Part shown: piece after piece, positions 15,329 through 39,732 of the stretch
How the letters are laid out: every line of letters starts with the position of its first letter
Position numbering within the stretch: the first letter of the stretch is position 1
NCBI GenBank assembly: GCA_025449115.1
Contig: JAHLKC010000047.1
Coordinates: 62,001-126,000 of the forward strand
Direction of reading: 5' to 3'
Source: Chytridium lagenaria
Taxonomy: Eukaryota > Chytridiomycota > Chytridiomycetes > Chytridiales > Chytridiaceae
DNA length: 64,000 bases
The notes under the pieces: model-generated
The model's input: only the letters and a program-made list of their open reading frames with translations
Databases searched by the model: none
Told to the model about the DNA's origin: nothing
Translations under genes and position numbers: made by a program

Positions 15329-15376
15329 GCTAGTGCTGTTGGGTCGGGATCTGAATTTGTCAATAAACAATTAAAG

Positions 15377-16298: not shown

Positions 16299-16581
16299 TG
16301 ACATCTCAGATTGGTTTTTCTATGTAACGCTGGTCGACAATAAAGATATGGAAACGATTCTGATTTTGACGAAAAAGTTGCTCTCAGGAAGGAGTGATGG
16401 CATAAAAAATTGGCGAAGCTTCCGAAAGATGATTTATTTTACAGTTGATCCAGAGGTGAATTAAGTGAGGAAACTGCCATAGCAAGGAGAACATGGAAGA
16501 ATGAGGCTCTCTTAGGAGTCACAAAGGAGGAAAGTAGGATGAGAGGATAAAAATTAAGGATAGTGTCGCAATGTATGCTTT

Positions 16582-17619: not shown

Positions 17620-17627
17620 ATTTGCAA

Positions 17628-21200: not shown

Positions 21201-21598
21201 TGGAATATTCCTGTCAGCCCACCTCTTTGAAAAATATCCCTTACCAGCGAGGTTTTTCCATTGAGATCAACTTTGTACTAAATGTTGTCAAGTTTGGCAT
21301 TAGCCAGAGATATCGTTTTGCCTAGAATTCACGGAATACTGAGAAGCGTAATTCCTGCGAAAACGAAGAGGGAGTTGGTCGTTGAAGGGCTAACTAAAAT
21401 TGCCAGAGGATTCCCATCACTGGCATCAAGTATCCTTGGAATTATTGAAGGTACACCTTTCTTCTGAGACTTGAAACTCAACCTTTTTTAGATGCCGGAA
21501 GATTGGAGCAGTGTGACGCCATAGGTGTCCAAAAAGCTAAAGCCATTGTTGCAAGCTATATGAACGATCCAAAGATTTTAAATAAATCTGTACAATAA
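18250..21598 (+). CDS. INTS2: Integrator complex subunit 2 (INTS2)
   Basis: INTS2 is a core scaffold subunit of Integrator, the nuclear complex that cleaves snRNA and other nascent Pol II transcripts. Matching blocks in order, across many short exons: LHRLREIFTSNIFDE (about 19275), DIGHWIYRSIATISLPFHTN (19505), LPMNKILLHIEQKENREYY (19890), LSPRELWLRVINAW (20475), HHELVLDPLLLFRC with RVFQVPQ (20550-20630), IIQTLLEVCWRIHNNEEKG (20865), LIGHFQGYEMGLIPIAVAEI (21030), FEFIPELLAQPQYEKQVFGI (21145), LPRIHGILR and ARGFPSLASSILGIIE (21310-21450). Stop at 21596-21598. The animal protein is ~1200 aa; only the C-terminal two thirds is clearly recognisable here. The 5' end (18250-18900) is divergent and its start is unresolved. 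Confidence 0.8.
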
Positions 21599-21616
21599 GC
21601 CCCAAAAGGCAAGAAC

Positions 21617-22946
21617 CTATTTATATACAGATATATCATAATCGCGCATGAGCTTGTTTGGTGAGCTTATAAAAGGCAGTTTCCTGACTTCCAACATCAA
21701 TGTCTTCAAAACTTTAAAACCACTTTCGTAACAAGCCTGTTCGGCTTCTTCCTTTCCCCATGCAGCTCCTACCCTTCACCTCCATTCGCCAGCGACTGTG
21801 TCATGCAATGATGCAAGCTACGCCGTACAAGAAAGCTCCGCGCGGTCCGATATTATTCTCGAGGTGTGAGCTCGCCTTTGGCTCAAGCATGATATATCTT
21901 AAAACAGGTTATGTCGATTACCGATAAACGTCTTACATCCCATCATCCTTTAACGCCTCGCTGATACGCTTTAAAGCAAGCTTCGGATGAGGAATATCGT
22001 GTATCACATCTACTGTCAATAACACATCAAATGGGCCACCAGATCCAGAAACGTGAGGTAGTGAGGTAGGCATCTTCAGCCTTCTTAGCTTCAACTTTAG
22101 GTTCTTGATCGACGGTTCCTTTGCCAACTTTTCATTTGCAGCCTCAATGGACTTGACATCGATATCATAACCGTAAAACTTTGAGTTTGGGAATCGCTTA
22201 GCAAGGTAAAGCAGAACGTTTCCAGATCCACATCCAATATCAGCGACGGTCGCGCCCTGCGGCCGTTCAAGTCTTTCAATAAATCCAGGAACAGCTCGAA
22301 GCTGCTTCTCCACCAAAACCTTGACAAAGCCAGGGCCATGAGCCCGACCCATGGCTTTCACAAAATCCGCCCGAAAACACTGAAAGGAACACCGCTCTCT
22401 GAAGCATCCGCAGAGGGTTTAAGGAAGCAATCCGAAACCTTGTCTGCGACATTGAAAAGAAGTCGAATCATGCCGAACCAACCAGCAGAGAACATTGGAG
22501 AGGTCTCGTCGGCAAGGATAGGGATATGCGCGGCGGGCAAGATGAACTTTCCAGATTCTGTTGACGAGCCTGAGGGTTTGAATTGGATGATGCCTGCAGC
22601 GGCGAGGGATGATAGGCATTCCTTCAAGTAACGCTGCGACCAAGCACCAGCACTTGCGCCATTGAAGTTACCTTTGGCGAGTTCTTCAACGCTGATACCT
22701 TTTTCTCCGGCCGCTGCAAGATTTTGAAGAGGTCCAGGCGGTCAGCAATGTACATGGTAGAGAGGATCACCGCGCTCGACGACATGCCGCCAACTCTGAA
22801 GATGGATGGGAAAGCATCAGCGATCATGGAGCTATGGATTTCACGACCACGGGAACAAACACGACTCAAGCCGACCCCCCTAAACTCTTTATCAACCCAA
22901 CTTGCCTCTCAAACAGCTCGCGTGTAGCCTTTTCATCGTCAGCCAT
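21617..22946 (-). CDS. SAM-dependent methyltransferase with winged-helix N-terminus
   Basis: Two-part architecture known from bacterial Rv2258c-like proteins and some eukaryotes: an N-terminal winged-helix region followed by a class I methyltransferase domain. The substrate is unknown. Start at 22946 (MADDEKATRELFERQ). The N-terminal part contains ILSTMYIADRLDLFKIL and LPAAHIPILADETSPMFSAG. SAM-binding motif I reads VADIGCGSGNVLLYLAKRFP (about 22190-22250), followed by FYGYDID and DVLLTVDVIHDIPHPKLALK. The C-terminal part continues ENNIGPRGAFLYGVACII, then MTQSLANGGEG and a final segment ending RDYDIS, but these lie in different frames, with one-base breaks near 22880, 21810 and 21750. Either a sequencing problem or a decaying gene. 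Its stop lies 18 bp from that of INTS2. Confidence 0.7.
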
Positions 22947-23040
22947 GACCTGATGGTTTTTTGATGGACAAGTTTTCTTATTAATTGCTTTCGTTCATTG
23001 TAATTCGCTGACTCCCATCCTGATTACTATTCATGCAAAA

Positions 23041-23095
23041 GATCACGTGACCATGCCCTTTTATTAGATATAATCTAAACACAAATATCCTACGC
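23041..23095 (+). repeat. Repeat unit A, left part (upstream promoter region of the Pol III unit)
   Basis: This segment is nearly identical to 37690-37744 of unit B. It contains CACGTG (23044-23049) and TATAAT (23069-23074). In the sequence before insertion, TATAAT would lie 31 bp upstream of the GGCGCC that starts the Pol III unit. The rest of the unit continues at 29223-29231 and 33821-35362, with two retrotransposons in between. Confidence 0.8.
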
Positions 23096-23644
23096 TGTGA
23101 GGGAACGTCCTTAAGTAGGGAAGGTTCCGAGGAATATTGAAAATATCTAAGGCAATAAAAGATAGTTTTTTTCGAAGTAAGTTTATTTAATGTCCAGTTG
23201 TCCCTTTTATAGTGAACGAAGAACAAAGGTAAGCGAAAAAGCGCGTAAAAAAGAAGGAGAAAGAAAAGCGCGTAAAAGAATAGAAAAAGGGACGCGAAAA
23301 GGTGAGTGTCATGGAAAAAAGGAGGGGTCCTTCTTCAGAAGACTGTAGCGACGTCTCGTCGTTAAACGACGTTGTCGGGGTCCTCATCACGAGAAGGAAA
23401 GGGGTCGACCGGTGCTAGATAGGGGTCGACGATGGAAAAAGAAAAAGGAAGGAAAGTAAAGATGGAAAAGAGAGTTAGCCTTTTTTAGAAAGGTGGAAAA
23501 CAGAAGGGAAAAACAAACATAGAAAGAATTATCACTTATGGAAAGAAATCTCATCGTGGAAAATATCGTTCATGGAAAAAAAAGATTATAAGGTGAGACA
23601 AGGATTTCTATAATATCCGTAGGGAAAATGGTTTTTCCGTGACA
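23096..23644 (-). repeat. 3' LTR of the Ty3/gypsy element
   Basis: 549 bp, starting TGTGAGGGAACGTCC and ending CCGTGACA on the plus strand. It differs from the other LTR mostly by short (about 1-3 bp) insertions and deletions, with few substitutions. Confidence 0.93.
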
Positions 23645-23653
23645 CCCCCCTAC
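23645..23653 (-). other. Polypurine tract of the LTR element
   Basis: On the minus strand GTAGGGGGG directly abuts the 3' LTR (TGTCACGG...). This is the expected position and composition of the plus-strand primer. Confidence 0.7.
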
Positions 23654-23879
23654 AAGAGCCGAAGGGTCGTAGGCGATGACGGAAAGGAAAAACCGAAGAA
23701 GAATGAAGGAGAAAAAAGGAAAAGGACTTAGAAAGGAAAGGAGGAGAGAAGAGAGAAAAAGAATAAATTGATCGCGCAAATGGAGACGAAAACGCGTAGA
23801 GATGGGAGACGAAACGCGTTGTTGAAGTCGGGAGGGACAGTTAATCCTCGGAGGTATATCTGAAGCTTGAATTTCCGGA

Positions 23880-24235
23880 AGTCCTTGTGGAGGACTAGTT
23901 GTTGAGAGGAGTTTGACGTCTGCCTTGATTCTATCACGCAGTTCTTGGTCGAATGGAAGCCATGTGTTGTATATTGGTGAGTGGTTTTGCCATTTGATGA
24001 GTGCTTGTCGTTGTCCTCGACCGCGGAGTGTCTTGAGAGTACGGAGGGCGAGGAGGCGTTCAACGGATCTCTCTGCTTGAGGAAGTGACGATAGAGGGTG
24101 AGGACCGTCAGTGTCCCAGTAATAAGGACGCAGTTTTTCAGGATGGATCACCGGATGGATACCCCAGGATTGAGGGAGCTCGAGCCGATAGGATGTGCCG
24201 ACGCGTTCAATGATCTTGTAGGGACCGGTGTACAC
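23880..24235 (-). other. Chromodomain-like C-terminus of integrase
   Basis: Reads MYTGPYKIIERVGTSYRLEL and IHPVIHPEKLRPYY (the GPY/F-type module), then a spacer and QALIKWQNHSPIYNTWLPFD, the chromodomain core with aromatic residues in the usual places. Chromodomains direct integrase to particular chromatin in chromoviruses. Here the insertion site is a Pol III-type promoter instead. Confidence 0.75.
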
Positions 24236-24239
24236 GGGG

Positions 24240-27200
24240 CCGAGCTTTTTGGGTCGATCTCGAGCATTCGGTGGAAGAACGTCTTGGCGTGAAGAAGAAC
24301 GAGGTCGCCATGTGAAAAGGGTCTTCCAGTCGTCGTCGATTTGCTTGCTCGGCTTGCCTGTCTTGAGCGTCTTGGATGGCGATTTTGGCTTTGGAGTACC
24401 AGGTCCTAAGGTTGCGGAGAGGCATGGGGTCCATGGGCGTCAGAGAGAGATCGAGGAGAGAGCGTGGATGGCGTCCGGTGTCGAGCATAAAGGTGTGTAA
24501 CCTGTTGAGGCGTTCATGGTGTCGTTTATGGCGTGTTCGACGATGTGTAGGTACTGATCCCAATCGTTTTGATAGAAGTGAACGAACTCGCGGAGAGCTT
24601 GAATGATCCACTGATTCTTATTTTCAGTCTGGCCGTCGGTTTGAGGGTGGTAAGAGGAGGAGATAGTCTGCTTGACTCGAGAGACTTCATCAGCGCGTTC
24701 CAGAAGTCACTGATGAATTTTGAGTCTCGATCGCTGATAATATGCTTGGGGAGGCCGTGATGTCGCCATACAGTTCGTAGGAAGAGTTCGGCGATGTCCT
24801 GAGCGGTGGATGTCGTGTTTGTTGCAGCATGTGAACGCGTTTTGAAGCGGAGTCAACGACGACCATATGTAATCGAGTTTTGTGTCGAGAGTTGTTGGCA
24901 TGGGGCCCATGAAGTCGATCGAGACGGTTTCCCAGCGATGTTCGGGGGCGTTGTGTGGCTCCAACAAGCCGTATGGGAGGTGACGCGCGACCTTGTTGCG
25001 TTGGCAGGAGTCGCAGAACTTGACGTATCGTTTCACATCATGATGGAGTCGTGGCCAGTGATAATTCCGGGAGATTCTTTCCGACGTTCGTTCCCAGTTG
25101 TTATGGATGACTGGTCCTTCGTTGTGAGCAAGACGTATGAGTCGTTGACGGATGGTGAGGGGACGTAAAGCCGAAGGTCGTTCCCAGCCGTGTAGTAAAG
25201 AAGTCCTCGGCTGAGAAAGTAGCGCAACACCGCCGTCTTCAGATGCTTTGGGATCTTGAGTTGGCGAAAATCGGCCTTGGGGTTTACGTTGTCGTCAAGA
25301 TAGGTGTTGATGTCTTTGAAGAACTCATCCGTTGGTAGGGCGTTCTTGATGTCGTCTAGAATGTCATTGGTGATGGTCGAAAGGGAATTCAACGAGATGT
25401 GAGGATCGGTGGCGGCGTCCTTGGCATGTGGTCGTCTGGAGAGAGCGTCAGCGATGGTGTTCCAGTTTCCTGGCGTCCATTCTATGACGAAGTCTTGGGC
25501 AAGGAGGTCTGCCAGCCATCGATGGTGGACGGGACGGAGCTTGGGTTGATCCAGGATGTATTGAAGGGAGCGATGATCCGTGAACACCTTGACCTGTCGC
25601 CCGTGATGTAGTGACGGTGAGTTCTGAAGGCTTCAACCAGGGCGAGGATTCTCCGAGATATGGATGATACTTGCGTTCGCTGACGTTGCATTTTCTTGAC
25701 GCGTAGGCAATGGGTACTTCGTGTCCCTCGTCATCAGGTTGGGCGACGTAACTGCCGACGGCTGATTCGGACCAGTCGGTGTAGAGATGAACGGGTCTTG
25801 TTGGATCGAAGAGACTGAGGACTTGAGGGGAGATGAGAGCTCTTTTGACCTTCTCGAAGACCGCTTGACTTGCTGGAGACCAGATGAAGGGAGCGGGGCG
25901 TTTCTTGTTTCCGGCACCTCTTAGGAGTTCAGTCAGAGGGGCGAGAAGACTGGCGTGTCGAGAGATGAATCGATGAATCGTGTTTGCGAGACCTATGAAG
26001 GAGCGGAGTTCTGTCCAGGAGGTAGGGGATTCGAAATCTTGAATAGCCTTAACTCGTGATGGAAGAACCTCTAGGTGACCGCGAGAAACGTGGAATCCTA
26101 GGTATTCGACTTCGGAAGTGAAGAAGGCGCACTTGTGAAGGCGGCAATGAAGTTGGTGTTCCTGAAGTCGGGCCAAGACTTTGCGTAAGTGTTCTTCATG
26201 TTCCTCCTGTGTTTCTGAGAATACCAAGATGTCGTCCATGTAGGCGATGAGGAACTCGTCGACGTAGTCTTGAAAGATGCTGTTGACCATTGACTGGAAG
26301 GTGGCTGGGGCGTTTGCGAGACCGAAAGGCATAACGACCCATTCAAAGTGGCCGTACTTGTGCGAAAGGCGTCTTGTGGGTATCTTCAGGGGTGATGCGA
26401 ATTTGATGATATCCAGAAGCGAGGTCGAGCTTTGAGAAATACTTTGCCTTACGAAGCCTGTCGAGGATCTCGGTGATATTTGGGAGCGCCGTTCTGTTCT
26501 TGACTGTATTCTTGTTGAGGGCGCGGTAATCGATGACCAACCTAAGTTTGCCGGCCTGAGCGATGTAGAAGATAGGAGCGCCGTATGCTGAGGATGATGG
26601 CTTGATTCTCCCATTGTCGAGGAGAAACTCGAGCTCTTTCTTGAGGGATGCGAGTTCTTCTTCTGAGAGAGGGTAGATGGGGCGATGCGGGGGCTTTGCC
26701 GTGGAATCCTCGAGCTCGATCTTGTGATTGAAAGACGTGAGGAGGAGTGCCAATGTATTCCGAGAAGACGGTGGGGAATTCCTTGACCATTGCTTTGATA
26801 TTGTCTGGGAGGTTGCGAGAACCTGAGCATCCTTGTCGTTGGCGTCGCTTGTGGTCTTGAGTATGTGATCTTGCTCTGGAGGGGGAGACGCGTCTGAGAG
26901 AGGTGGTGACAGGAGGCGGATAGCATTTCCGCGAGGTCCTTGATGTTGACGACTCCGATTCTTGCTCCAGGCTGTTTTGCGAGTTTGTTGAAGGTCTTGG
27001 CCGAGATGTGATCGACTTGGATGGGGGAGTAGTCCTTGCAGATCCAACGATGGTCGGCGAACATGACGGTATTGTTTTTCCAGTCGATGCGAGGGTTGAT
27101 TGCAGTTAACCAGTCCTTCCCTAGGATGACATCGTAAGCGATAGGGGCGAAACAAATCTTGAGAGACAGTGTATCGGTCGATGTTGAGGGTAAGGTTCTT

Positions 27201-27360
27201 GAAAAGGCGTCCGCGAACCGTTCTTGAGGTGGTGCGGCGAGTTTTATATTGAACTTGTCTTCTTTAGTGGGAGATGAGACCGAATAAGCGAGGGATTCTT
27301 TGACGAAGGAGTGAGTGGCTCCTCCGTCTATAAGGATCTTGGCGGTCGGTTGTTGATCGT
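24240..27360 (-). pseudogene. Pol region (protease, RT, RNase H, integrase) with frame breaks
   Basis: Protease: AKILIDGGATHS at about 27310-27345; the catalytic Asp is present but the usual D-S/T-G is D-G-G. RT: LVIDYRALNKNTVKNRTALP, FSKLDLASGYHQIRI, then AYMDDILVF with YMDD at 26231-26242. RNase H: PVHLYTDWSESAVGSYVAQ near 25770. Integrase: the zinc-binding region ends in VKFCDSCQRNKVARHLPYG (about 24960-25020), followed by the first catalytic Asp in VSIDFMGPMP (about 24900). At least three changes of frame interrupt the polyprotein, so it is listed as broken. The RT signature clearly places it in Ty3/gypsy rather than Ty1/copia. Confidence 0.88.
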
Positions 27361-27416
27361 GCCTTGAATGACGAGAAGGCTTTCGTAAGATTCTTGAGGC
27401 CTGAGGTGATGGCTTG

Positions 27417-28686
27417 CTAAGGTGGAGTGTTGATGAGGTCTTTTAGAGGTGTTTGCGAGGAGGGAGCATCGTCACCAGTGGAGTTCGCGGGTCCACTGTT
27501 GACTTCTGCGCGCTCGACCTCTGGACTTGGGTGCAGCCAGAGGGAGCGCGCTGTAGGGTCTTTAAGTCTGAGAGCCAGCCTGTCGGCTGTTGCCGACGGT
27601 GAGCTCTTCTTCTTCTCTTCGTCATCGTCGTCCTCGTAGGCCTCGAAGTTGTTGGAGCGGCTTTGTTTTGGGCGACGAATACCGGGGGCGTTGCAGTCCT
27701 CGTACTTGTGGTCATGTGAGCGGCAGTAGGTGCACCAACCGTTGTTGCGATAGGTGAGTTTTTCTTGTTCGGTAAGCCTGGTACGAGTGGCTTGGGTGTT
27801 GTCGATTTCCATGGGAGCGGGTCCTTGGTTACTTGGCTTGTCTCTAGGTCGAAAATTCCGCCGATGGCCCTGCTGATCTCTGCCCTTGTTGTCGCGGGAA
27901 TGGTTTCCTTCACGCCAATGGAAATCGTCGAGTCGCTCAGTTTCCCGCTGAAGTCGAACAAGGTCGTTCTGGATCTGGAAAGGTCTTCATTGGTACGGAG
28001 GATGGGCTTGAGACCTCGTCGGTACTTGTAGCAGAGGATAACTTCAGGGTAGATGATACCGGATCCTTCGATAGCTGCCACTAACTCGTTGAACTGTTGT
28101 GAATAGAGAGTGGCCGCCTTCTTTTGTTCGATTTTGTCGAGAGCGTCCAATGCTTGTTGGAGGGTGAGGGAGGAGGAGAATGCGTCGCGAACCCATTTGC
28201 AGTAGTCGGACCATGTCATCGTGTGTCGAGTGTCAGGGTCGATCCTTCGCCAGTAGGTGAGCGCGATACCGTCAGGCCGGTGGAGATCCAATCGACGTAG
28301 GTCTTTGATTACGGTATCTTGGTTCCTCAAAGTCTCCAAGGAAGTCGTAAAGTCTGGCGTCTCTGCAGATTGATGGAGGTACTCATCGATGGCGGCTTGA
28401 GCTTCGTGAGCGGGTTTCTTTCGAAGGTCACCGTTGAAGGTGGGAGGCTTGCGAGACGTGATACGGAACTCTGGGAGCCTTGGACTGAATCTTGGTCAGA
28501 CTCTTGAGGGACCGAGGAGACTTGATCAAGTCTTGCCTGAAGGGAGGCGATCTGTTCTTGGAGGCTTGTGACGACGTGGGCAACCTGGTTCAGAAGAGCA
28601 GGTTCGGGAGAGCCTTGATGGGACATGTTGAACGTGAGGTGGTCAAGAGGGATGGAGGAGGGATTGTTTTTCTGAAGTGCTACCAA
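27417..28686 (-). CDS. Gag region of the Ty3/gypsy element
   Basis: Two overlapping reading frames (28327-28686 and 27443-28339) give a capsid-like protein beginning MVALQKNNPSSIPLDHLTFN. It has a coiled segment (LLNQVAHVVTSLQEQIASLQ), the retrotransposon-gag pattern DPDTRHTMTWSDYCKWVRDA, and a third frame (27417-27812) with one zinc knuckle (WCTYCRSHDHKYEDCNA: C-x2-C-x3-H-x4-C, one residue shorter than the usual C-x2-C-x4-H-x4-C). The frame changes near 28330 and 27790 may be indels. Confidence 0.8.
28679..28685 (-). other. Primer-binding site, initiator tRNA-Met-like
   Basis: Two bases inside the 5' LTR, the minus strand reads TGGTAGC, complementary to the 3' end GCTACCA of initiator tRNA-Met as used by yeast Ty elements. 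Complementarity beyond seven bases is not evident. Confidence 0.55.
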
Positions 28687-28687
28687 T

Positions 28688-29222
28688 TGTGAGGGAACGT
28701 CCTTAAGTGGGAAGGTTCCGAGGAATATTGAAAATATCTAAGGCAATAAAAGATAGTTTTTTTCGAAGTAGTTTATTTAATGTCCAGTTGTCCTTTTATA
28801 GTGACGAAGAAGGTAAAGGAAAAAGCGCGTAAAAAGAAAGGAGAAAGAAAAGCGCGTAAAAGAATAGAAAAAGGGACGCGAAAAGGTGAGAGTCATGGAA
28901 AAAAGGAGGGGTCCTTCTTCAGAAGACTGTAGCGACGTCTCGTCGTTAAACGACGTTGTCGGGGTCCTCATCACAGAAGGAAAGGGGTCGACCGGTGCTA
29001 GATAGGGGTCGACGATGGAAAAAGAAAAGGAAGGAAAGTAAAGATGGAAAAAGAGAGCCTTTTTAGAAAGGTGGAAAACAAAAGGAAAACAAACATGAAA
29101 GAATTATCACTTATGGAAAGAAATCATCGTGGAAAAATCGTTCATTGGAAAAAAAAATATAGATTTATAGGTGAGACAAGGATTTCTATAATATCCGTAG
29201 GGAAAATGGTTTTTCCGTGACA
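28688..29222 (-). repeat. 5' LTR of the Ty3/gypsy element
   Basis: 535 bp, the partner of 23096-23644, with the same TGTGAGG / GTGACA ends. Followed directly by the target duplication TACGC. Confidence 0.93.
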
Positions 29223-29231
29223 TACGCAATA
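29223..29231. repeat. Target-site duplication TACGCAATA (left copy)
   Basis: Nine bases, repeated exactly at 33821-33829, flank the non-LTR element. The first five (TACGC) also serve as the right-hand duplication of the LTR element, so the two insertions share a target. Confidence 0.9.
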
Positions 29232-29601
29232 TTTTTTTTTTTTTTTTTTTTGTTTTTATAGTATTTATTTTGGGGGTAAACATAAAGTTATTACAAGTAA
29301 TAAAATTAAGAAAAACCAAAACAAAAACCATCCCGTATAGCCCATTACAGGCCGGGCACTAGATAACCGGTACACTCATATAAATGTAGGGGGTAAGTGG
29401 TTCAGTCGTATGGTGAGGGGAGGGGTGGCGGCCGTGATTAGAGGGGGGGGTGATACAATATCGATAGTGGTTCCAGCGTTGCGGTATGGGAAATGAACGG
29501 GAAACCCGACTATACAAGTAAAGATCGTCCAACCATAACTCGGTGCGACATGAACCCAAATTGGAAGTATAGTAAGGATAAACAGGAAGAGGAAAAAAGG
29601 G

Positions 29602-29660
<59 letters not shown>
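29602..29660. repeat. A59 homopolymer in the LINE 3' UTR (U59 in the transcript)
   Basis: Uninterrupted run of 59 A on the plus strand, about 350 bp inside the poly(A) end. A run of 35 A lies at the same position of copy B (38111-38145), so it belongs to the element and was not acquired at insertion. Confidence 0.95.
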
Positions 29661-29667
<7 letters not shown>

Positions 29668-29781
29668 ACAAAAATTAACAGCCGGAGGGACAGTGGATAC
29701 CCGGCTAATAGTGAAACGCCGTCACGGTCGGTGGTGGGTGACAGGGGAAGATGTAGGTATAAAAAGGGGGTTTTAATTCCT

Positions 29782-32229
29782 CTAGATATTCTCATCATCT
29801 TCCCCTGATTTCCTCCACCCAAAGAGTTTGCCGACAACTGCATTCATGGCCTTAGCCGCGTCCTTCCAGACGGGGGAGGCCTTTTGGTCGATGGAATGGC
29901 ATTTGTCGGTCCACTCGGCGAGGAGTGCAGGGGAGTTTTCGGTCGGTTTTGGTGGGTAGGCTTGAATGGCGTCTAAGATATCAAGTAGGTGGTCGATGTC
30001 GACAATGTCGGGGTGAGCGTTTGGAGTCCAGTCGTCTGGTTTTGCCCCTTCGACTATCTCTGGTATCCACAGGTACGCCCCGGAGCACTCGTTGGCATGC
30101 TGGCGGTTTACTTCGTTTGCTACGCCGATGGTGGTTAGGCATCGGCGGCATTCTCGGTATGGGTGTCCGGGTAAATTACCCAGCCGCCATAGTAGCATGC
30201 GTCGGCGGTTGATTTTGGTGACGATGGGTAGTCGGGCGGAGAGTATTGCTGATGGTCTGTCTCTGAAGGTGAAGGCAAGGGCGAGCTGTTGGTTGAGTTG
30301 TTTGTGATCTTTTGCTGCTGCTCGGAGACGGTATTCTTCCACCAAGCTGGGTATGGGAGGTGCAGGGGCTATGTGTGATACTTGTAGGGTCAGTGCTTTT
30401 TCCCAGGAGTCGTAGGTGAGGGGGTGGTTGTCACGTCGGTTTCTCATCTTTGCCCAGAGTGGTGTTTCTTCTACGGGGTGTGTGAGGTGTACTTCTTCTT
30501 CAAGTGCGAATATGGAAGAGGATAGGAAAGAGTGATCGTCTTGTCGGTCCCGCCATCGGGCTCGTGTGCGGGTGGCGAGGATGTTGTTACGGGTGGTGAG
30601 GAGGGGGAGGTTGGCGAGGCGGCGTATTGCCCGCTGAGACGTGCCACCGGATACGCCTAAGCCTGTGCACAGAGCTTTGTATTGGAAGCTTTCCAGGGGT
30701 TTAATGGCTGCGTTGTCGTAGACTGTCAGTTGAAATCCGTATTCCAACACTGGTCTAATGAAGACCTTGTAGACCCATACCACCGTTTTACCGGAGAACC
30801 CTTTCCCATTGAAGCCCAGTCGTCTGAGTTCCGCCAGTTTAATATGTGCTTTGGTGAGTCTGTGCTGTACTTGTGCCATCATATCGAATCCTTCTGATGT
30901 GAAAATGAACCCTAGGTATCTGAAGAACTCGGCAAAGGTGACTTGTTGCCCGTATAGTGTGAGTAGTTCTTCTCTCTTCATTTGTGGCTTCCTCAGGTGG
31001 GATAACCTCGGTTTTCTCTGGCGCGAATCTGAAATGGAGTGTAGTGCTGGTATTGGCTAGGTACTCGAGCATGTCGGAAAGTCTTGCGGCGGATTCAGCT
31101 AATACTGCTATATCGTCAGCGTATATCACTATACATGCTCCAAAGAGGGTGACGAATTCCCGTGTCATGGAGTCTATGAATATGGCGTATAGGATAGGGC
31201 TGAGTACCGATCCTTGGATGAGTCCCCTAGCTAACCAGTAGGCACTACTTGTTCTACCATTGATAATGACCTTGGCCATACATCGGTCGAACAGACTACG
31301 GAGGATGCTGACGAGTGATGTGGGATATCCTCTTCTTTGGAGTTCTGCCCATAGTAGGTCGCGGTCTACCGAGTCGTATGCCGCTTTTATGTCGAGGAAG
31401 CATAACCAGTGACCCCCTCCCTTCCTGTTGGAGTTAGCAATCAATGCTTGAAGTACTGCGGCCTGATCCGCTGTGCCGCGTCGGGATCTAAACCCGCCCT
31501 GGGCGGGTGTAGCCCATTTCCGTGTGTAGGATTGTCTAGATGGGGGTGAATGAGTCTTTCGTAGACTTTCCGGAGCACTTGGGAGAGGGATATAGGTCGG
31601 TGTTTGTCGACCTCGTGTGGTTTCCCTTTGCCTACTTTGTAGACTGGGTGTACTAACATTGTATTCCATTCTGTAGGAGTGACACCTACTTTTGCAATCG
31701 TATCCGCGATGATGAGGAACCACCCCGCCACGACGGATATGATCGGTTTAAGTAGCTCTGAGCGGATTCCATCTGACCCCGGCGCTTTCCCCGTCGGCGT
31801 TCGCTTTATAGCTGCCATGATTTCTTCTGTGGTGTGCCGTGTGAATGCAGCTGGTCGCAGTGTTGGTATGTTAGAGTGTGCCGGGGGGTTCTCGGGTGCG
31901 TTCGGGTCGGGGTCAGTGGAGACTTTCTGGAAGTGGTGCCGTACCGCCTCAAGTGTGTCCTCATGACCTTGGAGATGAGACGCACATTGCCGCCGGTTCC
32001 TACGACGAAGGGTCCCCGCCAGGAATTTCGTCGCAGTTGTCGTCGGCAAGGTGTGTAAAGTCTCCGTCCAGTCTTCGTAACCTTCTGTTTGTTTCTTTTT
32101 CATTGCCTTATTTTTTGCCTTTTTGGCTTTTGCCAGTCGACGTCTCGTTTCCCGGTGGAGGGGTGTGCCGCGTTGCGTGTTGTCCAGTTCAACTTGTAGT
32201 TCTTTGCGAACTCTTGCTAAACGGCGCAC
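29782..32229 (-). pseudogene. LINE ORF2, reverse transcriptase and C-terminal part (copy A)
   Basis: Three overlapping frames. 31441-32229 carries the RT N-terminus (AIKRTPTGKAPGSDGIRSEL, DKHRPISLSQVLRKVYERLI). 30839-31723 carries FLDIKAAYDSVDRDLLWAEL, the LIQGSVLSPILYAIFIDSM motif and catalytic YADD at 31112-31123. 29782-30981 carries the thumb and a C-terminal zinc-like motif (CRRCLTTIGVANEVNRQHAN followed by EC). All domains expected after the endonuclease are recognisable, but the frames do not join as read. Confidence 0.85.
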
Positions 32230-32310
32230 CTCCTCGTCCCAGGCCGAGCACGTCGCCGCTTTTGAATTTTTTAATTTTCTTTTTCCCTATTATTTCTAAT
32301 GCTAGTTCGT

Positions 32311-33282
32311 CTATTGCTTTTTCATTACCTCGAGTGCTACATCAAGTTGTCGAACACAGATCTCATCAGATATTGGGAGCCCCGCCGCGATGTCGTTTGA
32401 GATCTGTTGGACGGCTGATCTGATGTCGGTAGCTATTGCGAGTTCTATTGCAGCTGCTCGAGCCTTATACGTTGCCAGCGTATTTGGTTCGAGAAGTTTT
32501 TCGAGTCTATATGTATAGGCGTCCGGGGGTGCCGCTTCCGGTGCCACTGGTGGGACTACCCTTATCGTTGCCCAGATCGTTCGGTGTAGCACATCTACGG
32601 CTGCTGTTTGGTCGACGCTCATTTTACTGGTGTGTGGTCTGAGGTCCGCCGTCACCGCCATAAGGTCTATTACTGAGGTACGTCCGCTATTGTTGTATGT
32701 CCATTTGTTGGGGTGTGTGCCGTGTTTGATGAAGTGCATGCCGTGTTTGTCTAATGCGTTTAACAGTATGTTCCGGCGCCAGAGTGGGGAGAGTGCCGAG
32801 TCTCCGAACTTTGCGCCAAAACGTGTGTTAAAATCGCCGAGTATTAACATTGGGGTAGGTGTGTTCTTGTATGTCGTTTGTCTATCTAGTGAATGCAGAG
32901 CTTTGGCGACTCTAGCGGGCTTGGTGGTGGGGTTAAGGTAGAAAACTCCAATGTTAATGAAGTCTTTGTAACGGAACCATAGGTAGTCTCCTTGGGTGTC
33001 GGTTTCTAGTAGGCGGAAGTCTTCTGCAGTAGTGGCTGTTGGGTGTCTCATGATTGCGATCCCGCTCCTGCGTTTCCTTCCAGGTAGGGGGTTTAATCTA
33101 TGTTCTAGTACTAATAGTTCGTTATGAGGATGAAAGGTTTGACCCGGTATTGCTAGTGTTTCTTGGATTGCGAGGAAGTGGAACTGTTTGGCGATGAGGA
33201 GTTCACGGCATTCATGTATGGAGTTCGCCAGACCCCCTACGTTCAGTGATGCCGCGTGGATGGTAAGGATGTTGTGGTTCAT
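32311..33282 (-). CDS. LINE ORF2 N-terminus: apurinic-type endonuclease (copy A)
   Basis: Apurinic-like endonucleases nick the target DNA to prime reverse transcription. Reads IHAASLNVGGLANSIHECRE, LAIQETLAIPG (catalytic Glu), PMLILGDFNTRFG (catalytic GDFN), WTYNNSGRTSVIDLM (the family's S-x-IDL) and ends in ALEVMKKQ. The start codon at 33282 overlaps the ORF1 stop in an ATGA arrangement, which suggests translational coupling. Confidence 0.88.
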   Translation of the reverse strand: MNHNILTIHAASLNVGGLANSIHECRELLIAKQFHFLAIQETLAIPGQTFHPHNELLVLEHRLNPLPGRKRRSGIAIMRHPTATTAEDFRLLETDTQGDYLWFRYKDFINIGVFYLNPTTKPARVAKALHSLDRQTTYKNTPTPMLILGDFNTRFGAKFGDSALSPLWRRNILLNALDKHGMHFIKHGTHPNKWTYNNSGRTSVIDLMAVTADLRPHTSKMSVDQTAAVDVLHRTIWATIRVVPPVAPEAAPPDAYTYRLEKLLEPNTLATYKARAAAIELAIATDIRSAVQQISNDIAAGLPISDEICVRQLDVALEVMKKQ

Positions 33283-33821
33283 TTGTGTTCGGGGCCTTTC
33301 TGCCCTTTGTTATTTGTTGGTGTGGTGATTAATCTTAATTCTTCCCGAAATTGATTGCGATATTCTGTAGGTAGTCGAAGGAGGTATTGCAGTACGATAG
33401 CCACATCCGGTGTGTGGGCCGCTTCTCGTGTTAGACTCTTTATGACGTATTTCATGTGTGTTTCCTTGGTGGTGCTGGGGTGGGGTATGAAACCATCGTC
33501 GGTGAGTATCTTTATGTTTGTGTCGTTGAAGTATTTCGTTAACGTTTCAGTCTCGTTCTCTTGGGTGTTATAGAGTAGGAATTCTGTCTGTCTGCCATTA
33601 CGACGTACTGCAGCAATCGTGCGGGGGTTAATTTTTGCAGCGCGGGCGACAGTCGTGCGGGCTTCAGATGGTGTCATGTTAGTGATATTTTCTACTCGTA
33701 TAGAGGTGAGTCTGGACACTCTATCTTTTAAGACTTCGTTTCTGATGTCTTCGATGTTTTCGATGTGAAGGGGGGCTCGAGTCGCAGCCGCCGTTCGTGT
33801 TCCCAAGAAGGAGTTGGACAT
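33279..33821 (-). CDS. LINE ORF1 (copy A)
   Basis: 180 codons starting MSNSFLGTRTAAATRAPLHI. It contains TVARAAKINPRTIAAVRRNG and EFLLYNTQENETETLTKYF, reminiscent of the RRM-like part of LINE ORF1 proteins, and ends in KGQKGPEHK. The A of the ATG is the first base of the target duplication (33821), so this start is partly made from host DNA. An upstream in-frame ATG at 34076 extends the frame through the antisense of the Pol III unit; I take that extension as accidental. Confidence 0.7.
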   Translation of the reverse strand: MSNSFLGTRTAAATRAPLHIENIEDIRNEVLKDRVSRLTSIRVENITNMTPSEARTTVARAAKINPRTIAAVRRNGRQTEFLLYNTQENETETLTKYFNDTNIKILTDDGFIPHPSTTKETHMKYVIKSLTREAAHTPDVAIVLQYLLRLPTEYRNQFREELRLITTPTNNKGQKGPEHK

Positions 33822-35362
33822 ACGCAATAGGCGCCTGGTGGTCAAGTGGTTTTGCGCGCGACCCAGGATAAGCTTGCCGAAGAGCAGGTTCAACTCCTTT
33901 CTCTCTAGATTATTAGATCTCCGACGTGGGTCGGAGTATTCTTTGATCACTGTTGGATCCGAGGGCCGAAAGAAGATAGTAACCATTGGCACTTTAACGG
34001 TAACAAGTAATACAGCATCGTTCTGATGTCCGGTTCTTCTTTGCCGGTCAATTGGTGCGCAAGAGGCTTGAGCCACGCTCGCCGCGCTATGCCGCTTTCC
34101 TCTTTCATTTTTTTTTTTTTTTTGGTTTTTTTAGAAAACGTTTAAACTCCGCCCACTATATCCTTGCCGTAAACGATCGCTAGTTTTTGAACGTAAACAA
34201 TCATTAGGAGCTGGGTGGAGCGTCCTTTCTTGCAATATGTTCACAAAAAAAGTATATGTATCATGATAAATGTACTATTTAGCATCAAAGGAAGTCAAAT
34301 GAACATCTCTACGTCAAAAGCACAACGACAAAAGAATACGATGAAAAAACGGGATGAAGAAAGCAACCCTGCTCAGCATTCCTTAATATCTTTGGGTAAG
34401 CCGGCTATTACTTTTTTGCAAGTACATAAAAGAGAGAAGAAAAAAACACTCACATCGCCAAATTTCAAGCCAAAATACGGAAGACCCGAAGCGATGGCAA
34501 GGTTCGTGCAAGATTTTATGTCAACTTGACCTTTTGCCAATTTCTGAGCCAACAACGGCGGTTCGTGTTGCCGACCTCAGTTATACATATCCGGTACTTT
34601 AGCTATGGTTGAGTTTGAAACGGCGGTGCGATGAATTAATAACGTAGGTGCGAAAGTAAGGCGCCGAATACAAAGGCACGAAAAAAAAAGGTACGCGAAT
34701 TTAATAGGAATAGAAGAGGCCTCTCCCCATGCGAATATAATATATCATGAAGTCTGAAATGGTCTATACAAGAAGCACATTGCGGATAAAAAAGTAGGAT
34801 TATCAAGACACCACAGCTCTGTCACCTTTGCGATACCAAGAGCCTGTGAGCAAGCCGAGACAAAGATCCCGAAAGCCCGTAGATGCGTCCGGAACCGCTG
34901 AACCGACACTAGTAACAATTGTCAGCGTACGAACACCATTTGCTAATGATATGGGAAAGGGTTTAAAATTCTCACCGATGATGCAGTCCATAATAAGCGG
35001 CGCTCATCCTTAGCCTCCGCAACAGGAAAACAGAAGTAAAGATTTTCCAGCCTGCTTAGCCCATAGTTTCCTTCGGTTTCCCTTTATTGCAACCTGCAGG
35101 AGACCTTGGAAGAGGGTATTCGATGGCAAATGTGTTGACGAGCCACAAGCAAAACACGAATAATCTAATTTATAAGTTATGGGTGTTCACGTAGTAAGAG
35201 AGAAGAAAAAAAAAACCGGCGTACGTTGAATCAACGATAAAATCCTGGTTCATCTTGTTTTGATTTACGTCACCCATAACGGATTGTTGTTTTTTGATAA
35301 CTTCACCTTGTCGGTTAAGTTCCTGACGATACTATTTGGGATAATATGATAAGCAAAATGTA
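33821..35362 (+). repeat. Repeat unit A, right part
   Basis: Closely matches 39437-41111 (unit B) from the Pol III unit to its end near AAGCAAAATGTA. Unit A lacks ~65-bp and ~67-bp segments present in B (39790-39855 and 40050-40116). Minus-strand reading frames (34373-34555 and 34803-34991, with LTIVTSVGSAVPDASTGF and AQKLAKGQVDIKSCTNLAI) are shared in altered form by both units, so a small protein gene may once have been part of the unit. I do not recognise it. Confidence 0.8.
33830..34123 (+). ncRNA. Pol III-type transcription unit A (tRNA-like head, ~294 nt)
   Basis: Starts GGCGCCTGG. A box TGGTCAAGTGG at 33839-33849, B box GGTTCAACTCC at 33887-33897 (48 bp apart), and a perfect 7-bp hairpin CTCCGAC-GTGG-GTCGGAG at 33919-33936. 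It ends in T16 (34108-34123), a strong Pol III terminator. The matching TATAAT lies at -31 in the uninterrupted arrangement. The head resembles a degenerate serine/leucine tRNA but does not fold into a full cloverleaf. It could be a tRNA-derived SINE or a structural RNA. I checked by eye for SRP RNA and RNase P signatures and did not find them. Confidence 0.6.
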
Positions 35363-35842
35363 TCAGAACCTCCTGTACCTATCCCCCCAATTGTCTTCTA
35401 CAGCAACCGTTCCCCCCTCTCCAACCTTCAGTGGAAGAAGATGGGGAGCGGTGGAGGGGACGTGGAGAAGGCGGTCTGGGTTGATCATGAAATGACGAGC
35501 GGAAGGATGTGGGTTGAGGAGACGACGCGGAAACATCATGACGGCGAATGCTCGATGAATGCTATGAAAAGGGGTGACGAATTGCGTCGACAACTCAAAA
35601 ATAAACACCTTCATCCACATTCAGCACCTCAGCCGTCCAGACCTGGGCAGAGTGCATCAGATCAGTGTACATTTACGATTGTGCGGATATATTTGTTGAG
35701 TTGGCGAAAAACGTTTAAACTATTTAAAATGTGGCGGAGGGATTGATAGGAAATTAATGCTACAAGAGTGATGGCTGGAAATTGTTTAAACTTGTATTGT
35801 TTTCGTTTCTTTTAAGAAAAGTACATCAAATATAGATTCGTT
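35363..35842. other. Intergenic after repeat unit A
   Basis: About 480 bp. Opposing open frames (35441-35746 plus, 35363-35620 minus) overlap each other and neither looks conserved. No gene called. Confidence 0.4.
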
Positions 35843-37382
35843 GTTTTTACTCCACAAACGCTTCGTAAAGCTCATTCAATTCTTCATCGCTAGTGCTTAT
35901 TTCCCGACTAGAATCCCCTTCGTTCGACTGGGCAGGGGAGGATGGGTCTTCAGGTCCCTCGTCGAACGTCGGATCCACATACCCAGATCCTCCGGAATAC
36001 TAGGAGAGACGCAAACTTGTTCATCGTCGGAGTCCGAGTCTCCCACCTTGCTGCTCTCACTTGTTGGGGAGCTCACAGAAGAAGAGGAAGTTCCCGACGA
36101 TGAAGACGCGCTATCCTCCTGAGTAGTGGCGTCGCTGGCAGTGCCAATCGAATATTCGATAACTGTAACGAATAACAAATTTGATAAGAGAATAATAAAA
36201 GTTGGTGTTGTCAACCCATGCACTCACTGCTTGGTGCCTCTTCGTTTGCTTTCAGCTTGGGCTCATCGTACAGTCTCTGACGCGGGGGAGCAGAGGCACA
36301 TCTCCCAACGTTTGCCGTCTTCTTTTTTTCGTTATTTCTAATTCGCGCGGGAGCAGAGGCACATCTCCCCAACGTTTGCCGTCTTCTTTTTCGTTATTTC
36401 TATTCGCGCGGGAGCAGAGGCACATTCTCCCAACGTTTGCCGTCTTCTTTTTCGTTATTTGGTATTCTCCCTCCTGATAAATAAAGATGTTAAGAAAAAG
36501 GTAATGACAAACAATAAAACTTACTCGCACTCGTCGTCGCAGCAGCTTGCGCTTTAGCTGCTTCAGCTTCTTGCGCTTTGGCGGCTTCAACTGCTTGTGC
36601 TTTAGCTACTTCAGCTGCCTCTTTAGCCAACTTTATAGCCTTGATGCGTTCACTCTTTCGAACGGGAAGGACTACAAAACGTTCTCTAATTATGCAAAAA
36701 TAAAATAAATAAACATACCTGATTTTTCTTGACGCTGCAATGCCATCAAGATTAACGCAGCATTGACTTCGGTCGTCCCCTCCAATCCAGTTGCGATGAT
36801 CTCTGCTGCAGCTGTGTCTGACAATTTTTGAGCTGTCAATGAGTGGAAAGGTGAAACACTTACTTTCGCCAGTGAGGTTGTAGCTTGTGCCTTGGCCGCC
36901 TTCGGCGGCACAGGCCAATCCAGCTGATGAAACTTCTCCCACCACCTCCTCCTCGTCGCTGATCCAGGTATCAGCCTGGGGCGTGGTGCGGGACGTAGCC
37001 GGTTGTCTCTTTGAGCGGGTCTTCCTTCCCCCTTAATTAGTTGTTAGTTGGCGTTGAAGGTTTCCTACGGTGGGTGTGGAAGGGTAAACCTACTCTTTGT
37101 TCCTTGAGTGGTGGATGGTGCTGTAGACACACCGCTAGAGGCTTGGGGAGCAGCCACGTCAGCAAAGGCTTGCTCTGGTGCCAGCTCACTTCCGTGATGC
37201 TGGCTTCCGGTGATCTTTTCATTCTCAACCTCCGTCTCCGGAATGTACTGGCGATCTTTATGCAGATTAGAAGCAGAGTTCGGGTAGTGAAATGAAGAGC
37301 AAACTGTATGTGGGAATCCTTTGGAAGTAAAGTCGTCATGTAGGTACTCACTGATTCCTTGATACCGACTTGAAGAACTCAT
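35843..37382 (-). CDS. Unrecognised acidic, Ala-rich protein
   Basis: Start at 37382: MSSSSRYQGISEYLHDDFTS, then YIPETEVENEKITGSQHHGS and a Pro/Thr-rich stretch. Middle exons give TWISDEEEVVGEVSSAGLAC, LSDTAAAEIIATGLEG and VRKSERIKAIKLAKEAAEVA followed by an (A/E)AAKAQ repeat, a likely helix. The C-terminal part is Ser/Asp/Glu-rich (TQEDSASSSSGTSSSS) and ends either in RRSTRDLKTHPPLP or, in another frame, in SDEELNELYEAFVE at 35843. Exon structure is uncertain. A three-copy tandem repeat (36281-36460) lies inside the gene. Confidence 0.4.
36281..36460. repeat. Tandem repeat, three copies of ~63-64 bp
   Basis: Copies begin at about 36281, 36345 and 36408 with CGCGGGAGCAGAGGCACA and continue through CCAACGTTTGCCGTCTTC and TTTTTCGTTATTT. 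The period is not a multiple of three, so successive copies would be read in shifted frames if coding. An intron is more likely. Confidence 0.85.
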
Positions 37383-37689
37383 TGATACGTGCTGTTAGAG
37401 CAAGTGTCAAGTAGAGTCGTGGAGAGTAGAGAGAGTGTGTTGGTGTAGTGTTGGTGTAGTGTGTTTTTGCAATGTACGTTGCGTGGGAGAAAAAGAAATA
37501 TATTTCAGAATTTCTATATTTTCTTTTATACCTGTGCATAAAGGAGGATTGTATGCAGGTGCGCATGTACGTGTCATTTCTAAGTCCATTATTGCGGACT
37601 GGTATTTTCCAATTACATTCCGTTCTCATCCGTCACTTAGCTTTTGGATTCAGAAGTCTCTTTGTAAAAAACGTACTCGGCATAGGCGA

Positions 37690-37749
37690 GATCACGTGAC
37701 CATGCTCTCTTTACCAGATATAATCTAAACACAAATATCCTACGTAATA
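37690..37749 (+). repeat. Repeat unit B, left part (upstream promoter region of the Pol III unit)
   Basis: Nearly the same as 23041-23095 plus 29223-29231: CACGTG at 37693-37698, TATAAT at 37719-37724, then TACGTAATA. The TATAAT lies 31 bp upstream of the GGCGCC at 37750. Confidence 0.8.
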
Positions 37750-37758
37750 GGCGCCTGG

Positions 37759-38104
37759 TTTTTTTTTTTTTTTTTTTTGTTTTTATAGTATTTATTTTGG
37801 GGGTAAACATAAAATTATTACAAATAATAAAGTTAAGAAAAACCAAAACAAAACCATCCCGTATAGCCCATTACAGGCAGGGCACTAGATAACCGGTACA
37901 CTAATATAGATGTAGGGGGTAGGTGTTACAGACGTAGGGTAGAGGGAGGGGTGACGGCCTTGACTAGAGGGGGGGGATACAATATCGATAGTGGTTCCAG
38001 CGTTGCGGTATGGGATGTGAACGGGAAACCCGACTATACAAGTAATGATCGTCCAACCATAATTAGGTGCGACATGAACCCAGAGTGAAGGTATAGTATA
38101 AAAT

Positions 38105-38147
<43 letters not shown>

Positions 38148-39436
38148 AGGAGACCGGGAGGGACAGCTGATACCCGGCTCATAGTAAAACGCGGTCTGAG
38201 TCTATAATGGGTGACAGAGGAGGATGAGGTATGAAAGGATATTCTGATTCCTTTAAATATTCTCATCATCTTCCCCTGATTTCCTCCACCCAAAAAGCTT
38301 GCCGACGACGGCGTTCATGGCCTTAGCCGCGTCCTTCCAGACGGGGGAGGCCTTCTGGTCGATATCGTTGCATTTGGCATTCCAGGCTGCCATGAGTGCG
38401 GGAGAGTCGTCTAATGGTTTCGGTGGGTATGTTTGGATGGCGTCTAATATGTCAAGCAGGTGGTCAATGTCGACTATCCCGGGGTGCTCGTTTGGGATCC
38501 AGTCGTGTGGTTTGGCTCCTTCGACTATTTCGGGTATCCACAAGTACGCCCCGGAGCACTCGTTGGCGTGCTGTCGGTTTACTTCGTTTGCTACGCCGAT
38601 GGTGGTGAGGCATCGGCGGCATTCTCGATATGGGTGGCCGGGTAAGTTACCCAGGCGCCATAGTAGCATGCGTCGTCGGTTGATTTTGGTTGTAATGGGG
38701 AGGCGAGCGGATAGTATAGCTGATGGTCTGTCCCTCATGTTGAAAGCGAGTGCGAGTTGTTGGTTCAGCTGCTTGTGATCTTTAACGGCAGCGTGGAGGC
38801 GATAGTCTTCCGCCAGGCTAGGGATGGGAGGTGCGTTGTCTATCGGCGATATTTGGAGCATCAGTGCTTTTTCCCAAGAGTCGTAGGTGAGAGGGTGATG
38901 GTTGCGGCGGGTGTTCATTTTGTTCCAGAGAGGCGTTTCTTCGACTGGGTGGGTGAGGTTAACTTCTTCTTCAAGTGGGAATATGGAGGAGGAGAGAAAC
39001 GAGAGGTCATCTTTGCGGTCCCGCCACCGGGCCCGTGTGCGAGTGGCGAGTAGATTGTTGCGTGTTGTGAGTAGTGGAAGATTGGCGAGTCGGCGGATTG
39101 CTCTCTGTGATGTGCCTCCAGCCACGCCCAGGCCGGTACATAGGGCTTTATATTGGAAGCTTTCTAGGAGTTTTATGGCGGTGTTGTCGTATACGGTGAG
39201 TTGGAAGCCGTATTCTAGTACCGGTCTAATGAAGACCTTGTATACCCAGACCACGGTTTTGCCAGAGAAACCTTTGCCGTTAAAACCGAGACGTCGGAGT
39301 TCTGCCAGTTTGAGGTGAGCTTTGGTGAGTCGGTGTTGACTTGTGCCATCATATCGAAGCCTTCTGATGTGAATATGAATCCTAGGTATTTAAAGAACTC
39401 GGCGAATGTGACTGGTTGTCCGTAGAGTGTGAGTAG
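37759..39436 (-). mobile_element. 5'-truncated LINE, copy B
   Basis: 1678 bp on the minus strand with poly(A) (T run from 37759), the same 3' UTR including an A35 run (38111-38145), and the ORF2 C-terminal part (38253-39420, with CRRCLTTIGVANEVNRQHAN). It is truncated at a point matching about 30967 of copy A. Flanked by a 9-bp duplication GGCGCCTGG (37750-37758 and 39437-39445). Many substitutions relative to copy A show that this is an older or different subfamily member. Confidence 0.9.
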
Positions 39437-39732
39437 GGCGCCTGGTGGTCAAGTGGTTTTGCGCGCGACCCCAGGATAAGCTTGCCGAAGAGCAGGGTTC
39501 AACTCCTTTCTCTCTAGATTATTAGATCTCCGACGTGGGTCGGAGTATTCTTTGATCACTGTTGGATCCGAGGGCCGAAAGAAGATAGTAACCATTGGCA
39601 CTTTAACGGTAACAAGTAATACAGCATCGTTCTGATGTCCGGTTCTTCTTTGCCGGTCAATTGGTGCGCAAGAGGCTTGAGCCACCTCGCCGCGCTATGC
39701 CGCTTTCCTCTTTCATCTTTTTTTTTTTTTTT
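39437..39732 (+). ncRNA. Pol III-type transcription unit B
   Basis: Same organisation as the unit at 33830: GGCGCCTGG, A box at 39446-39456, B box GGTTCAACTCC at 39496-39506, and T15 at 39718-39732. The boxes and T run are preserved in both copies. The nine bases before the A box are restored by the LINE target duplication, but the TATAAT is now 1.7 kb away. Confidence 0.6.

Follow-up and report, generated by a model that had tools for sequence, protein, structure and literature searches.

What brought three retrotransposon insertions into an interval of 18 bp directly ahead of the A box of a small gene-like unit is the question raised by a 64,000-nucleotide stretch of the Chytridium lagenaria genome (contig C47, positions 62001-126000, hereafter the window; assembly of 41.9 Mb in 356 contigs). 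The window holds two tandem copies of this unit, in each of which an A box, a B box and a T-run were read directly. Copy 1 (33830-34123, plus strand) begins with GGCGCCTGG and carries its A box (TGGTCAAGTGG) at 33839-33849, its B box (GGTTCAACTCC) at 33887-33897 and its T-run at 34108-34123; in copy 2 (39437-39732, plus strand), the same boxes lie at 39446-39456 and 39496-39506, and the T-run at 39718-39732. Copy 1 is preceded by a Ty3/gypsy-type long terminal repeat (LTR) element (23096-29222, minus strand) and a long interspersed nuclear element (LINE A, 29232-33820, minus strand, with poly-T at its left end), and copy 2 is split by a second LINE (LINE B, 37759-39436, minus strand).

Each insertion is bounded by an exact target-site duplication (TSD), and all coordinates were rechecked: the 5-bp TACGC of the LTR element at 23091-23095 and 29223-29227, TACGCAATA of LINE A at 29223-29231 and 33821-33829, and GGCGCCTGG of LINE B at 37750-37758 and 39437-39445. 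The stretch 29223-29231 belongs to two elements, its first 5 bp forming the right TSD of the LTR element and the whole of it the left TSD of LINE A, and 37750-37758 serves both as the left TSD of LINE B and as the opening 9 bp of the second unit copy. Across the two unit copies, all three insertions thus fall within 18 bp ahead of the A box. This 18-base string had a single occurrence in the 41.9-Mb assembly when a gap of 0-20 was permitted with zero mismatches. An initial annotation of the locus had placed three insertions in an 18-bp interval directly upstream of the A box in a TATA/A-box/B-box/T-run unit, which was confirmed to the base. Some details required correction: copy 2 reads TACGTAATA, LINE A adjoins GGCGCC, 9 bp ahead of the A box, and LINE B adjoins the A box itself. 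As LINE A and LINE B share 82-90% identity and differ in cut position, they are taken as two separate insertions.

Junctions of related copies elsewhere in the assembly indicated that, with high probability, two unrelated retrotransposons independently target genes transcribed by RNA polymerase III (Pol III). Eight related LINE 3' ends were found in the genome. Both junctions were read in seven of these (window A, window B and the copies on contigs C61, C44, C33, C12 and C105), while the 5' side of the eighth, on C115, lies off its contig. All seven were inserted in the A-box region of genes of Pol III type, each LINE being antisense to its gene and turning its 5' end towards it. Their targets are the unit (twice), a tRNA-Met gene (C44) and a tRNA-Ser gene (C33), both Rfam-confirmed, and, called by eye, a degenerate tRNA-like gene (C12) and B-box genes with T-runs (C61, C105); the A box matched the consensus in five of the seven. 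Read in gene direction, the cut lies 9 bp ahead of the A box for LINE A, at its edge for LINE B and C33, and approximately 2 bp ahead of it at C61 and at C44, where Ts make the position ambiguous. At C12 and C105, direct reading showed that an A box departing from the consensus and a B box come after the duplications, the cut being close to the expected place of such an A box. The LINE TSDs, 9-16 bp in length, contain the gene's first bases in all but window A, so that an entire gene body is retained on the downstream side of the insert.

Further LINE copies adjoin a tRNA cluster and a tRNA-Tyr-like gene. One identical LINE junction, predicted to lie 6-13 bp from a scored tRNA, is present on C80 and at two places on C114; it was counted as one event together with C291, which was grouped by identical scores. 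On C159 (locus L063), a LINE relative at 27-43% protein identity shows a 36-A run followed by a tRNA-Tyr-like 5' half, identified by eye. The stretches on C12, C159, C314 and C148 were likewise presumed to be tRNA-like on a by-eye reading.

For the LTR element, 18 LTR matches were grouped into nine sites: the window with its allele C344, C5, C196 with its likely allele C355, C13 with C51, C69, C33, C137, C189 and C312. C13 and C51, two contig ends that both carry CCTTG, were joined by inference. One-mismatch LTR ends (C30, C138, C140, C153, C350) were not counted; a reversed-pattern control gave 2 matches. The gene-side flank was readable at six of the nine sites (window unit, C5, C196, C33, C13, C69), and in all six the 5' LTR end points towards the gene. 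At C5 (TSD ATTTA), an Rfam-supported tRNA-His gene begins 8 bp past the LTR, and at C196 (TSD TTCAA) the same distance separates the LTR from a tRNA-Cys gene that both ARAGORN and Rfam detected, even though the regular expression used for the counts below does not match its B box. These were the only tRNAs found in a scan of the window and 25 loci, and both lie at LTR junctions. From TSD start to A box, the distance was 18 bp in the window, 17 bp at C5 and 15 bp at C196, the three sites at which the LTR end is intact and an A box can be recognised; the B box lies 65, 62, 60 and approximately 66 bp from the LTR end at C13, C69, C5 and the window, respectively. C33 carries a remnant of the LTR element (LTR 77%, internal region 74%) just upstream of the LINE and the tRNA-Ser gene, and is a second locus with an LTR-LINE-gene stack, as in the window.

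Chance expectation was assessed with 54,670 control positions, taken every 7 nt on both strands and including element sequence and insertion-chosen loci. A B-box motif 30-130 nt downstream was found at 1,138 of these positions (2.1%), and A and B boxes together at 16 (0.03%). With the same regular expressions, the two-junction LINEs scored 7/7 for the B box and 5/7 for the A box, and the LTR sites 4/5 and 3/5, C33 being counted with the LINEs. Rows for C114, C159 and C89 were excluded from these counts owing to a short stretch or an uncertain junction; none matched the B-box expression. Element ends predicted on the assumption of the spacing in the window or C44 were also compared with 86 scored tRNA matches. 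Among 21 LINE loci, hand-grouped from 52 matches, seven had their predicted 5' end no more than 500 bp away from the 5' end of a scored tRNA (expected, 0.043), all in facing orientation; three of the seven are one copied junction and C291 is apparently a fourth, leaving approximately four independent cases. A related LTR family was represented by 16 loci, hand-grouped from 86 matches and omitting the window family's own copies as well as families at ~30-33% identity, and at five of these no more than 1 kb separated a predicted element end from the 5' end of a scored tRNA (expected, 0.13). The initial annotation had proposed that both element types use a Pol III-bound complex and that junctions would fall near the unit or tRNA genes. 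This proposal is supported by strong enrichment for both elements among readable junctions, in what is an incomplete census.

The unit had itself been put forward as the integration hotspot. It is indeed targeted, but a genome search yielded only five matches at four places, those besides the window being on C225 (67%) and C17 (ends only). Since the unit has so few copies, the real hotspot is represented by Pol III-type genes at large. The A box is retained in 4/4 unit copies and the B box in 3/4; the diverged C225 copy keeps both boxes and the T-run, and the C17 copy keeps the A box without the B-box stretch. The unit gave no Rfam match at E ≤ 5 on 33700-34700, none at the gathering threshold was found across the window, and the C225 and C17 copies gave none at E ≤ 1. 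ARAGORN, with or without introns, found no tRNA in the window. Because neither program gave a match, the label 'Pol III-type' rests on the boxes and the T-run, which correspond to the A box, B box and terminator of a type 2 Pol III promoter arrangement. A genome search with Fungi_SRP was empty, but so were its controls, which makes it uninformative for the identity of the unit. On these sequence features, the unit and the other non-tRNA targets are probably Pol III-transcribed genes.

Upstream of unit copy 1 lies a promoter-like segment (23041-23095, plus strand) that comprises GATCACGTGACC and an AT-rich stretch and ends in the TSD TACGC; a similar segment precedes copy 2 from 37690, and a 100% copy occurs on C344. 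The motif CACGTGAC was found approximately 64-66 bp upstream of the A box in both unit copies (window positions 23044 and 37693) and in the C61 gene (locus L051, position 4475), and 83 bp upstream at C89 (locus L062, position 158). It is possibly an upstream element of a non-tRNA Pol III gene class with the A box TGGTCAARTGG.

A number of observations weigh against a general preference of both elements for Pol III-type genes. For the LINE, gapped-pattern tests of the sequence that follows the duplications at C12 and C105 detected no consensus A box, and Rfam (E ≤ 1 for C12, C61 and C105) detected no tRNA at C12, C61, C105, C159 or C89, where the genes were called by eye. At C25, no Pol III gene was seen at the predicted LINE 5' end, a position that is an estimate, and at C89 a Pol III-like gene is nearby but off the junction. 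The LINEs on C314 and C148 lie, by coordinates, near scored tRNAs with further tRNA-like sequence in between. Their junctions, and the 5' sides of C115, C16, C261 and C319 with its duplicate on C80, fall outside the junctions read. For the LTR element, C13 and C69 lack a recognisable A box, C69 being a lone LTR whose gene-side end is lost, and an Rfam scan of the C189, C51, C13, C69 and C137 loci gave no tRNA, just sub-gathering hairpin-type matches. Three of the nine LTR sites have no readable gene-side flank: C137 is truncated at TTAGGG-like repeats, the contig of C189 ends on that side and C312 consists of an array of elements. The related LTR family occurs, by prediction, in both orientations, so that a fixed orientation may be peculiar to the window family. 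The tRNA list behind the distance counts is partial, with 62 of 1,880 candidates scored.

The positions of the readable junctions suggest that two insertion enzymes, unlike in their chemistry, independently came to follow the same Pol III gene machinery. According to the mechanism proposed here, the Ty3/gypsy chromovirus-type element would integrate around the transcription start, at a distance of 15-18 bp ahead of the A box, producing 5-bp duplications and with its 5' LTR end towards the gene. The LINE would nick the coding strand where the A box begins or close by, prime reverse transcription there and then cut the opposite strand some 9-16 bp further upstream. Docking of both enzymes by TFIIIB/TFIIIC is the most likely basis, judged from position and by analogy with Ty3 and TRE5-A. 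The integrase would dock at the start site, where TFIIIB sits, whereas the A box, as the meeting place of TFIIIC and Brf1, would offer the LINE protein a TFIIIC/TFIIIB complex to bind; given the different positions of the two elements relative to the A box, different surfaces may be read. Ty3 integrase and the TRE5-A ORF1 protein provide a precedent for contact with TFIIIB (PMC5911963). Later insertions could enter the space that separates an earlier one from the gene, leading to stacking at one locus. If the LTR element came first in the window and at C33, each later LINE landed between LTR and gene; the reverse order is possible.

The best-surviving alternative is that the LINE endonuclease reads A-box DNA itself, in the manner of site-specific LINEs, and that the LTR element alone is guided by protein. 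The cut at or near the A-box edge in 7/7 two-junction LINEs, and the TGG that directly follows it at window B and C33, are as expected from sequence reading. The target A boxes nevertheless vary (TGGTCAAGTGG, TAGCTCAGGGG, TGGCCGAGTGG), those at C12 and C105 miss the regular expression, LINE A was inserted 9 bp away from the box and the bases at the cut differ among sites, which makes this alternative improbable. Active Pol III genes are in open chromatin, and nucleosome-free genes of this kind might passively gather any insertion with no dedicated contact. Such accessibility would account for a preference common to two unrelated elements. Narrow positions and constant orientation (LINE 7/7, LTR 6/6) are not expected from openness alone, and among the LINE 5' sides read, only C25 was without a Pol III gene and only C89 off the A box; passive accessibility is therefore considered very unlikely. 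Chance nesting combined with segmental duplication of one locus, to which the tandem duplication of the unit and the copied LINE junction of C80 and C114 might point, can practically be dismissed, as LINE A and LINE B are unlike in cut site, length and sequence and insertions at comparable positions are present in further genes elsewhere in the assembly, each with its own TSDs.

Within the preferred reading, in which both enzymes follow Pol III-bound proteins, a more specific scenario is advanced tentatively: an old LINE lineage outside the dictyostelids might recognise A-box-bound TFIIIC/TFIIIB, its endonuclease cutting at the A-box edge, a chromovirus with a degenerate chromodomain might have converged on the same genes from the start side, and both would stack. 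If this holds for the LINE lineage, the gene-preserving duplication would mean that insertion does little harm even inside a tRNA gene. In this scenario, the diverged C159 relative beside a tRNA-Tyr-like gene suggests that the Pol III habit of these LINEs is older than the split between subfamilies.

The structure of the LTR element agrees with Ty3/gypsy (Metaviridae) elements. Its 5' LTR (28688-29222, minus strand), identified by comparison of the LTR pair, faces the unit, and its gene-distal 3' LTR (23096-23644, minus strand) is 93.9% identical to it; the LTR ends, TGTGAG..GTGACA, are of the TG..CA type, in addition to the 5-bp TSDs. The internal region (23645-28687, minus strand) contains gag, protease, reverse transcriptase, RNase H and integrase pieces in this order and in several frames, with Pfam matches to Retrotrans_gag, RVP_2, RVT_1, RT_RNaseH, RT_RNaseH_2, Integrase_H2C2 and SH3_Tf2-1. 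The integrase C-terminus (23906-24250, minus strand) combines the SH3_Tf2-1 module with a divergent chromodomain: the Pfam Chromo score was 18.5 bits, under the cut-off of 25.1, and the best solved-structure match was the CBX4 chromodomain (E 7e-4). In the CBX4 alignment, the presumed aromatic cage positions 1 and 3 are non-aromatic. This tail matched at 95-100% in loci L033, L037, L038, L040 and L044, other copies being frame-broken with lower matches, and a similar tail occurs in the relative P0002.

The primer-binding site (28676-28687), adjoining the 5' LTR, is a 12-nt match to the 3' end of the C44 tRNA-Met gene plus CCA (locus L055). On C312 (locus L037, 5554-6648), two LTR elements stand head to tail, separated by just 6 bp (TTGACA); the array to which they belong has at least three internal regions. 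The copy on C137 (locus L042, 2004-2090) breaks off at TTAGGG-like repeats, which gives the impression that a repeat patch or the end of a chromosome healed onto it. Two LTR insertions (C137, C51) and a LINE insertion (C115) have arrays of palindromic B-box hairpins nearby (GGGTTCGAACCC and relatives; L041 5567-6520, L044 2992-4546, L052 1988-2637).

LINE A and LINE B are both 5'-truncated and antisense to the unit; Pfam identified pieces of an AP-type endonuclease and a reverse transcriptase in several frames of LINE A. These domains, the poly(A) 3' end, 5' truncation and variable TSDs of 9-16 bp are those of an AP-endonuclease LINE. Copies on C44 and C61 extend further 5' than LINE A. The C44 copy (locus L050, 1-5010), next to tRNA-Met, has a stop-free frame of at least 1,669 aa with endonuclease and reverse transcriptase, in which Pfam gave no RNase H match. 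A protein search with the window LINE endonuclease frame gave no matches. Among 70 matches from a LINE protein search, the few that are named by organism include Lichtheimia and Bipolaris, the best-scoring of them being the fungus Lichtheimia ramosa (27% identity).

The window locus is present in at least three versions in the assembly, the others being C225 (loci L034, L035) and C344 (locus L033). C344 matches window positions 15260-25241 at 98.2%, including the LTR junction. C225 matches the window on both flanks (97.8% and 97.5%) and has neither element in the 18 kb examined, and thus looks, by sequence, like another haplotype of the locus; an unrelated 4.4-kb stretch stands there at the place of the window insertions.

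Among known systems, the window LTR element, with its insertion less than approximately 20 bp upstream of tRNA and other Pol III-type genes, falls beside Ty3 of S. cerevisiae and Tj1 of S. japonicus (PMC4600332), Ty3 inserting 1-4 bp upstream of the transcription start site (PMC5911963). A further fungal likeness is provided by the Ty3/gypsy elements Ylt1, Tyl3 and Tyl6 of Yarrowia, located ~5 bp upstream of tRNA transcription starts (PMC5911963). Tj1 is fixed in the transcriptional direction of the gene (PMC4600332), whereas the window element has the opposite orientation (5' end to the gene, 6/6), its own transcription running away from the gene because its 5' LTR end faces it. Unlike Ty3 and Tj1, it has a chromodomain-like tail. 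The initial annotation had considered a chromodomain integrase at a Pol III start unexpected, but there is a precedent: Skipper-2, a dictyostelid chromovirus, inserts at tRNA genes and shows divergence at cage aromatics 1 and 3 (PMC5006619), a pattern that the divergent chromodomain-like tail of the window element probably shares. Skipper-2 sits downstream of tRNA genes (PMC5006619) and the window element upstream.

The closest parallels for the LINE are Dp_NLTR-A, TRE5-A and NLTR-B, non-LTR elements at tRNA genes of dictyostelids (PMC5911963, PMC5006619), from which it differs in having a host of another kingdom, a fungus. Like TRE5 elements, it is oriented opposite to the gene, and the narrow distance and constant orientation typical of TRE5 and NLTR elements were seen in 7/7 two-junction LINEs. 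The distance itself is unlike that of TRE5: TRE5 and NLTR-B insert ~39-64 bp upstream and NLTR-A 2-6 bp upstream of the mature tRNA sequence, whereas the duplication places the coding-strand cut of this LINE within the gene itself, close to the A box. An RNase H is also carried by NLTR-A, in contrast to the Pfam result for the C44 frame (PMC5911963, PMC5006619 for these dictyostelid traits). Among fungal LINEs, Ylli of Yarrowia is without identified target duplications and nicks AT-rich sequence (PMC5014426), unlike this LINE, and the passages describing it mention no Pol III preference (PMC5014426). Pol III-targeted LINEs tabulated in a review are from dictyostelids only (PMC5911963), and literature searches found no Pol III-targeted fungal LINE, nor is one mentioned in the Yarrowia and yeast-review passages, which is not proof of absence in print.

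Targeting of Pol III genes is of a known kind; the cut position of this LINE looks new. Were a second, apparently fungal case with its own cut position established, it would mean that guidance of a target-primed endonuclease to Pol III genes can arise more than once. An integrase can here be compared, in a natural setting, with a LINE endonuclease acting on the same genes. The two cage residues that are apparently missing here, like their counterparts in Skipper-2, lead to the testable idea that loss of histone reading accompanies the gain of Pol III targeting.

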